Below the pieces are notes generated by a model. It was not told the origin of the DNA and searched no databases. It saw only the letters and a program-made list of their open reading frames with translations. Of a stretch of 64,000 nt of DNA, positions 17,542 through 43,592 are shown one piece after another. This DNA is from Vavraia culicis subsp. floridensis (taxonomy: Eukaryota > Microsporidia > Pleistophoridae). The stretch covers positions 1,740-65,739 of the forward strand of contig NW_007360606.1 of the NCBI RefSeq assembly GCF_000192795.1. The letters run 5' to 3'. The position numbers and the translations under genes are program-made. How positions within the stretch are numbered: position 1 is the stretch's first letter; every line of letters begins with the position of its first letter.

Positions 17542-18394
17542 ATGAAAATGGTAGAAAATAAACACAAGTTCTACAAGAGACGTGTATTAATAGCTGGTAA
17601 GTGCGACTATCTAATTAGGTGTTGGTTCTACGGGATCAGAAGTAGTAAAAATGCTGCTGCAATACGGGTGTGAACTCACTGTCCTGGATAATGACACGGT
17701 TGCTGTTACAGATTTGAATAGACAGTTCTATTATAGAAAAAATGATATTGGTCGACCCAAGGTAAAGGTACTGGAGGAATATTTGAGGCGACATCATGGG
17801 GTTATAATAGAGGTTATCAACAAAGACGTGTTCGATGTAACAGAATTTAGTTACGATCTTATGTTTTGCTGCTTTGATAATATCGAGTCACGTATGCAAC
17901 TCAATTATGTTGCTTATACCAATAATGTGCCAATGATCGATCTTGGGATCGAAGGCTTACAGATGCACGTAAAAAAGGTTGATTTTGCGACGGATCGTGC
18001 ATGTCTGTATTGCATGAAGGATTTATACAAAAACAAAACTGTCTTTAATTACTGTTCTCTAAAGAACATGAATACGCGCAACAGAGAAGCATGCATTTAC
18101 AGTATGAGTTTAAAATATGAATCGATCAATGAGGTGATTGAACGTTTTAACGCAGTAAATGAATTAAAAACGGATGAGTTTGAGGTCAGAGGAGTAACGG
18201 AGAATATTCTACCAAATGCATGCTATATTGCATCTTTGTGTGCATCCATGGCATGCAAAATGATTAATGAACAAGAATATGATTTCCTCTACTACAATGG
18301 ATACGAAGCAATTCATTTTAGCACCACAAAGATGGATATTGATCCAACCTGCATTTTATGTAATTTCAAGACACAGGAGCACAAAAATAATTAG
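17542..18394 (+). CDS. UBA3: Uba3-like E1 activating enzyme, two exons
   Basis: E1 enzymes adenylate a ubiquitin-like protein and pass it to a cysteine; Uba3 does so for NEDD8/Rub1. Exon 1 is 17542-17596 and exon 2 is 17619-18394. Removing the 22-base intron restores the nucleotide-binding motif GVGSTG at residues 19-24 and yields 276 residues, close to yeast Uba3 (299). Also seen are D-x-D before LNRQF at 51-55, GRPK, zinc ligands C147/C150 and C263/C266, and a candidate catalytic Cys at 164 in NYCSLKN. The segment VRGVTENILPNACYIASL resembles Uba3 more than Uba2. It could instead serve another ubiquitin-like protein. CCC lies 16 bases before the ATG. Left unspliced, the frame hits a stop at about 17671. 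Confidence 0.8.
17597..17618 (+). other. 22-base spliceosomal intron in the Uba3-like gene
   Basis: The intron begins GTAAGT and ends CTAATTAG. The CTAAT is the expected branch-point sequence, placed directly against the 3' AG, as in other short microsporidian introns. Its length is not a multiple of three, and splicing is required to build the ATP-binding motif. Confidence 0.9.
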
Positions 18395-42670: not shown

Positions 42671-43592
42671 ATGAATGCATTACTACCTTTTTTGTCGGCT
42701 AGAGGAGGATCTGTGTACAAAAACTTCCATGAAAAGAGCATCAACGTATTCTTCCTGAACCTGCTCCTAGAAATAATCACCTATGGCATGTGCACATTTT
42801 TTATTTTCAGTTGCAACCACAAGAAAATAACGTTATCATTCTCGTTCTCGCTGGTCATGGGAAACCTGTTCCTCATAGATTCTATTCTTCTCAAAAATGT
42901 GTATCAGATGTATCTATACACAATTTTCTATGTGTACACGCTATCATTGATGACTTACTTCCTGTTTGATGAGATAAACACCCGGATAAGCAGAGTGTTC
43001 GGAATGCTGGTGATACTTCTCTTTTTGATAAGAGGCTCTATCATCATTTACAAGTCCAAAGGATTTATTTACGAATTTTCATGGTACTACTACAAGAAAA
43101 TCGGTTGTGAATCAACTATAAACGGTAAGTAACATATTCTAATTAGAAATCAATATGGTAAGTCATTTTTTTAATTTAGATAAGACAGAAATTAATAGTG
43201 ATCTTCAAGCTATACGTCCTCTTCTCCATGATTCAGATTTTTACTGAGAATACGGTTTCGCTGAGGCAGATGGTGTGCGTATCCATCCAGGTAATATGCA
43301 AGCTGGTCTTCTACTTTATTTTCGTCACAAATAAACATACGGAGAACCACAAGGCCAGGATAATCCTTTATATATTTCTTGCGACAGACTTTTCTGCGGA
43401 TGTCAGCTGCACGGTTGAAGACATAAAATCTGACCGAACGGAATTGGTATAAGTTAATATTTCTAATTTAGATTTCAATTAATAACAGACAGCTTTAAAT
43501 TCATAGTGATGCTGATGCTCATGCTGTACATGATTAAGGATCAGATGAAATTTGGAAGTGGGCTGAAAAAGGTTATGGAGAACAGGCATTAG
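42671..43592 (+). CDS. multi-pass membrane protein with three tiny introns
   Basis: I do not recognise the family. Exon 1 (42671-43124) encodes about four membrane helices. Exon 2 (43147-43157) is only 11 bases. Exon 3 (43180 to 43446-43448) encodes two or three more helices, and exon 4 from 43472 encodes a last helix (FKFIVMLMLMLYMIKD) and a basic tail ending at the stop at 43590-43592. With the last intron taken as 43449-43471, the four exons join to 285 codons in one frame, 284 residues. If its donor is the GT at 43447, the product stops at 43498 instead (252 residues), losing the last helix. The product is probably in an internal or plasma membrane. There is no CCC near the ATG. Confidence 0.75.
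43125..43146 (+). other. 22-base intron 1 of the membrane-protein gene
   Basis: Begins GTAAGT and ends CTAATTAG, the same ends and the same length as the intron in the Uba3-like gene. Reading through gives a stop at once (TAA at 43130). Confidence 0.88.
43158..43179 (+). other. 22-base intron 2 of the membrane-protein gene
   Basis: Begins GTAAGT and ends TAATTTAG. Splicing both flanking introns keeps the reading frame through the 11-base exon; skipping that exon would break the frame. Confidence 0.82.
43447..43471 (+). other. probable intron 3 of the membrane-protein gene, donor uncertain
   Basis: The 3' end CTAATTTAG at 43463-43471 is a good branch/acceptor. The 5' end reads GTATAAGT. Use of the GT gives 25 bases and a short product; an intron starting at the following ATAAGT (43449) gives 23 bases and keeps the downstream membrane helix in frame. 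Confidence 0.6.

Follow-up and report, generated by a model that had tools for sequence, protein, structure and literature searches.

What is to be made of a microsporidian gene in which two introns of 22 nucleotides (nt) flank an exon of only 11 nt, and a third tiny intron follows? The gene lies within a 64,000-nt stretch of DNA from Vavraia culicis subsp. floridensis (contig NW_007360606.1, positions 1,740 to 65,739 of the forward strand, assembly GCF_000192795.1), hereafter the window. A first-pass annotation had described it as a membrane-protein gene with three ultrashort introns and an 11-base exon, and our analysis supports that description. To judge from the sequences compared here, the gene belongs to a multicopy family of polytopic membrane proteins whose exon-intron structure is conserved and whose acceptors, where homology places them, fall at a G that is often not part of an AG. 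We think it likely that the tiny introns of this gene family are recognised as units and that their acceptor is the first G beyond a TAATT motif, with no need of AG; that RNAs are spliced at the non-AG sites is what we infer from this arrangement. The predicted parts of the window gene, with the first ATG assumed as start codon, are as follows.

42671..43124, + strand: exon 1, 454 nt, an open reading frame ending in phase 1
43125..43146, + strand: intron 1, 22 nt, GTAAGT...TAATTAG, at a position common to 12 of 13 family copies (all but the copy on contig C1)
43147..43157, + strand: exon 2, 11 nt, required for the frame
43158..43179, + strand: intron 2, 22 nt, GTAAGT...TAATTTAG, found in 8 of 13 copies
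43180..43448, + strand: exon 3, 269 nt, its end in the window copy picked by frame and length
43449..43471, + strand: intron 3, 23 nt, ATAAGT...TAATTTAG, placed by frame and length conservation
43472..43592, + strand: exon 4, 121 nt, with the last hydrophobic segment, an FGSGLK motif and the stop codon TAG

The first two introns of the window gene, GTAAGTAACATATTCTAATTAG and GTAAGTCATTTTTTTAATTTAG, and the 11-nt exon between them fall at exactly the junction positions proposed in the first pass. Skipping of exon 2 was considered and rejected; it shifts the frame and leads to a stop after 22 codons. The earlier claim that three introns join all pieces in one frame holds for introns 1 and 2, but for the third, ATAAGTTAATATTTCTAATTTAG, it holds only with a non-GT donor: among four donors tried, only ATAAGT at 43449 or a 26-nt GG form (43446) reaches exon 4, and the GT at 43447 was rejected, being out of frame and leading to a stop after 8 codons. 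We place the third intron at 43449-43471 because it then joins exon 3 to an open and conserved exon 4. Its position matches that of intron 3 in 10 other copies, and its acceptor is canonical, all three introns of the window copy terminating in AG. The non-GT donor may point to inefficient splicing, to a change of recent date or to an error in the sequence.

A search of the organism's own genome (5.63 megabases in 80 contigs) shows that the gene is not the isolated oddity for which it had been taken. Exon 1 matches nine further places (expectation values, E, of 1.7e-19 to 7.8e-5) on contigs C61 (four), C13 (three), C51 and C2, and intron motifs lead to three more copies, named C2b, C1 and C5 after their contigs, the last of them cut by a contig end. 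The family thus counts 13 copies, the window's and 12 further ones. Eight of them (the window gene, C61a-d and C13a-c) have the same three introns; exon 2 measures 11 nt and exon 3 269 nt in all eight, the latter length depending in the window copy on the ATAAGT donor, itself picked by frame and length. Fewer introns are found in C51 (intron 1 only), C2a and C2b (introns 1 and 3) and C1 (intron 3 only); C5 has intron 1, and its sequence ends before the place of intron 3. In C51, C2a, C2b and C5, exon 2 is fused to exon 3. Since the coding sequence runs on uninterrupted in the copies that lack intron 2, or introns 2 and 3, the boundaries are independently supported, and this continuous encoding of the junctions is the strongest evidence that sequence alone can give for a coding 11-nt exon. 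A tree of 12 family proteins was set aside as a guide to whether intron 2 was gained or lost: two changes are needed, the branches are long, and the tree does not decide.

The spliced products behave as related proteins. When nine of them are aligned (the eight three-intron copies and C51), gaps occur elsewhere and none falls at a junction. For each exon block, the proportion of nonsynonymous differences (pN) is below that of synonymous differences (pS) in all 28 pairs of the eight three-intron copies, with pN/pS of 0.18-0.78 in exon 1 (last 60 codons), 0.28-0.63 in exons 2 and 3 together and 0.21-0.70 in exon 4 (at most 36 codons); on this measure exon 4 is under purifying selection. Two side observations concern single copies. 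C13b and C13c are nearly identical in exon 1 (nonsynonymous divergence, dN, 0.030; synonymous divergence, dS, 0.046) and identical in introns 1 and 2, but their exons 2 and 3 have diverged (L016; dS 1.09 vs 0.046 in exon 1), which is likely the result of gene conversion of the 5' part. C2a (L018) has an in-frame TGA in exon 1 and is possibly a decaying copy.

Homology also fixes the acceptors. We set the intron 3 boundary in 11 copies at 76 nt upstream of the codon preceding the FG motif (FH in C2b), and there the last base of the intron is G in 11 of 11 copies, although AG in only two; in the 11 positions before this terminal G, a G occurs once in 121. The intron 2 boundary, set in eight copies at 3 nt ahead of a conserved R codon, gives a terminal G in all eight and AG in six. 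The first pass had seen the main puzzle of the gene in exon definition. With introns of 22 nt, recognition across the intron would naturally be expected, and the stranger feature, which that annotation missed, appears to be the non-AG acceptors in the paralogues of the window gene.

We compiled introns inside and outside the family with a pattern that leaves the 3' end free, GTAAGTN{7,11}TAATT. Its count was rejected as evidence in itself, with 63 matches in the genome vs 57 for a reversed control, and 8 vs 4 for a stricter form with TAATTTAG; on these sequences, the multi-intron structure rises above chance by homology, and the motif alone does not. The tally took in 40 of the 63 matches: 29 introns of the family and 11 in genes whose Pfam match exceeds the cut-off. 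Left out were L051 and L057 (plausible; scanned, with no Pfam match above the cut-off), as well as a further 21, comprising L037 (scanned, with no match) and 20 that were not scanned. Homology added two more introns of the family, whose donors are GTAGGT and ATAAGT, bringing the family introns to 31 and the total to 42.

In all 42, the intron terminates at the first G that stands two or more bases beyond TAATT. In 14 of them, with ends placed by homology, this G belongs to TG, CG or GG (in the trinucleotides TTG, CTG, TCG, ATG and TGG). The non-AG introns comprise 12 of the 31 in the family and 2 of the 11 outside it; by position in the family, they are 1 of 12 first introns, 2 of 8 second introns and 9 of 11 third introns. 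The donor is GTAAGT in 40 of 42, as the pattern required for these 40, and GTAGGT and ATAAGT once each, the latter in the window's intron 3. TAATT, which we take as the putative branch site, stands 8-12 nt after the donor hexamer in 42 of 42, again required by the pattern for 40. Among the features of U2-type introns, the GT donor, the branch motif and the spliceosome are present, and the 3' terminal AG is wanting in 14 of 42 introns.

The 11 genes outside the family encode eL39, eL18, S26, S17, L1, a cold-shock protein, ThiF, PTH2, Sedlin, eL42 and BolA. In five of them (BolA, PTH2, Sedlin, cold-shock and ThiF) the Pfam match crosses the junction, and in S17 it begins at residue 1; in eL39, eL18, S26, L1 and eL42 a first exon of one or two codons precedes the match, which serves only to name the gene. 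The queries for eL18, S17, ThiF and L1 were cut to 111-151 residues. Nine of the 11 introns finish in AG, and the other two in TAATTGG (eL42) and TAATTTG (BolA). Since AG and frame were used to set the ends of the AG introns outside the family, it is the non-AG ones that carry weight. With its GG acceptor, eL42 yields MVNVPKTRRTYC, and 58 solved-chain sequences match the protein; its alignment with the two best of them begins at residue 1. The possible acceptors are not told apart by the Pfam score for Ribosomal_L44 (85.4 vs 85.2 bits), but the full-length chains do separate them. In the BolA-like gene (L052, contig C29), a 22-nt intron has a TTG acceptor, and the unspliced frame stops five codons on. 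The spliced product scores 38.9 bits with this acceptor and 25.1 with the AG alternative, just below the cut-off of 25.7, and there is no match without splicing.

Several further observations accompany this survey. A ThiF-family gene in the window itself contains an intron, GTAAGTGCGACTATCTAATTAG, of the same class as the family introns:
17597..17618, + strand: intron, 22 nt, GT-AG, in a ThiF-family gene, with the Pfam ThiF match (1.9e-26) spanning the junction
The same 19-base intron-like motif occurs in similar contexts at C7:92732 and C43:34791, where one frame runs through it, and it is probably a repeat. A search with Ribosomal_S27 gave one match.

These results can be accommodated by a simple mechanism. 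Ultrashort introns would be recognised as whole units, with GTAAGT as the 5' site and TAATT, 8 to 12 nt on, as the branch site; exon ligation would take the first G at least 2 bases past TAATT, the preceding base often being A while T, C or G would serve as well. The second step would then need only a G close to the branch site. This relaxation may stem from loss of the second-step fidelity factors Prp18 and Slu7, which would be dispensable where branch site and acceptor are very close. The genome encodes a spliceosome, as indicated by a Prp8 domain (PF10596) in a frame of 1932 codons, a U6 with ACAGAGA and 13 LSM matches over the cut-off. Two U2 small nuclear RNA genes of equal score are also present (L079, C2:66969-67117; L080, C60:16823-16971). 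Neither Prp18 (PF02840) nor Slu7 (PF11708) gave a match at E up to 10, and none of 14 control genomes matched either. Published work describes what happens in yeast without Prp18: branch-proximal sites are activated, and AUG, ACG, UGG and UUG are the most used among those that lack A, while both Prp18 and Slu7 are dispensable at a short branch-acceptor distance (PMC10711555). We lean towards the view that the spliceosome of this organism no longer reads the 3' AG, its fidelity factors having been lost and its branch-acceptor distance having fallen below a limit thought to be imposed by Prp18 in yeast.

Could the introns be removed and the acceptors nevertheless always be AG, the next downstream AG being used wherever none lies near the branch site, at the price of a few residues? 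The next AG is in frame for six of the 14 non-AG introns (intron 3 of C61b, C61c, C13b and C13c, and the introns of eL42 and BolA), but for eight it is out of frame, lying 5 nt on in intron 2 of C61a and C13a, where it breaks the frame, and 73 nt on in intron 3 of C61a. The junctions, moreover, align free of gaps with C51, the copy that lacks introns 2 and 3, and the homology-fixed end of intron 3 is G in every copy. Use of the downstream AG would deprive eL42 of VNVPK, where the two best chains have VNIPK, and would bring the BolA score down as described. We therefore hold this explanation to be improbable. A somewhat stronger case can be made that introns 1 and 2 are spliced and intron 3 is mostly retained, so that the stop with which it begins cuts the last hydrophobic segment off the protein, the full-length form being a minor product or a relic, an idea partly compatible with our preferred explanation. 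Microsporidian splicing is inefficient, with a median of 25.3% in V. culicis (PMC4435813), 9 of 11 copies of intron 3 have no AG, and the window copy has ATAAGT. Against this, exon 4 is open in all 11 copies that have intron 3, with FG in 10 and FH in C2b; C51 encodes the same stretch with no intron, though with FN replacing FG; and pN is below pS in exon 4 throughout the 28 pairs. Retention as the general state of intron 3 thus seems unlikely to us.

The non-AG sites could also be an appearance created by assembly errors or pseudogenes, as the in-frame TGA of C2a and the single ATAAGT donor of the window might suggest. Yet family copies on three contigs have such sites, as do two unrelated conserved genes on a further two contigs, and the eight three-intron copies keep open frames on which purifying selection acts, so we give this explanation very little credence. 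P0002, a protein from another data set (3743-base contig), is 98% identical to C51 exon 1 (151 of 154 residues) and reads on into the same intron 1 as C51; it speaks against error as well, but backs only C51, whose acceptor is AG.

A number of points weigh against our preferred explanation. The anchor distances were set after the alignment had been seen, so that they demonstrate consistency across copies and are not a blind test, and other shifts also meet conserved codons, with G in 8 of 8 copies at +5 for intron 2 and in 7 of 11 at +11 for intron 3. A 12-row MAFFT alignment that includes C2a, C2b and C1 is gapped near junction 3 for C2b and C1; these two copies are divergent, and it was by counting from the FG or FH motif that their boundary was set. 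The two non-AG sites of C2a may reflect decay, given its in-frame TGA. Where the downstream AG keeps the frame, in 6 of the 14 non-AG cases, the cost is a loss of 4 to 9 residues. The first-G rule is weakly tested by the AG introns outside the family, whose ends AG and frame had set. An ATAAGT donor should impair exon ligation in known U2-type introns. RNA sequencing, finally, bore out splicing at the conserved motif for a single gene among 85 predicted introns in Trachipleistophora hominis and for two of eight genes in Spraguea (PMC4654818, PMC3749934).

Comparison with known systems sets the structure apart. The introns of Encephalitozoon cuniculi measure 22-76 nt and have a strict donor and branch motif, as here; few of its genes have two introns, in keeping with the first-pass view that a multi-intron gene is unusual in this group, and many of its introns are poorly spliced (PMC3629993). 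They are described in that article as GT-AG throughout, whereas here 14 of 42 introns would be non-AG and eight genes have three introns. In T. hominis, the intron expression combines GTA[AG]GT with TAATT, which is shared here, and introns are named in the genes for S26, S17, L39 and L44 (PMC4435813, PMC3486916, PMC4654818); an intron in the cold-shock-domain gene is reported from both V. culicis and T. hominis (PMC4435813), and we find it as well. The genome size of 5.63 megabases falls inside the range of 2.3-9 megabases described there as typical, and together with the style of the introns and the known intron-bearing genes it suits a microsporidian. The T. hominis survey expression demands AG (PMC3486916), so non-AG acceptors would be invisible to it. 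In the titles, abstracts and excerpts covered from the literature on microsporidian introns, splicing and noncanonical acceptors, we recognised no report of a non-AG intron in microsporidia, and a search of the same literature for Prp18 and Slu7 in this group gave no paper.

Outside the microsporidia, the acceptors used by yeast without Prp18 are like those found here, but that case is a mutant with alternative sites, while here the sites would be the sole ones, the genes look intact, and Prp18 is presumed lost (PMC10711555). Human alternative 3' splice sites share the TG acceptor, which in the account cited is never the sole one (PMC2374985), whereas here TG would be the sole site. Mikrocytids likewise have uniform tiny introns (16-17 nt) and a reduced spliceosome, but they are unrelated organisms, with 224 predicted introns in Mikrocytos mackini (PMC10245619).

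The nine aligned members of the family have 271-285 residues, and a simple hydropathy scan of six members finds seven to eight hydrophobic segments. The window protein has no match in Pfam; among the nine members the best E is 0.28, in one of nine, and the Get2_like family to which it points was rejected as an identity, this value not being significant. A search of the nine members against NCBIfam gave a best E of 0.021, again in one of nine and not significant, and a PDB search for the family returned no match at E up to 1. Two protein searches for outside relatives returned only the window's own protein and P0002, whose near identity to C51 suggests that the other data set derives from the same or a very close species; a scan of viral contigs for P0002 found none.

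Few rules of nuclear introns are as constant as that of the terminal AG. If our reading is true, sole TG, CG and GG acceptors in a third of the compiled introns would show how far a minimal spliceosome can relax that rule, and the relaxed acceptor would be tied to a known fidelity mechanism. Intron searches that demand AG would, in such genomes, miss introns and mis-predict genes, those for eL42 and BolA included. A wild-type eukaryote would then splice by a rule for acceptors that in yeast is seen only in a mutant.
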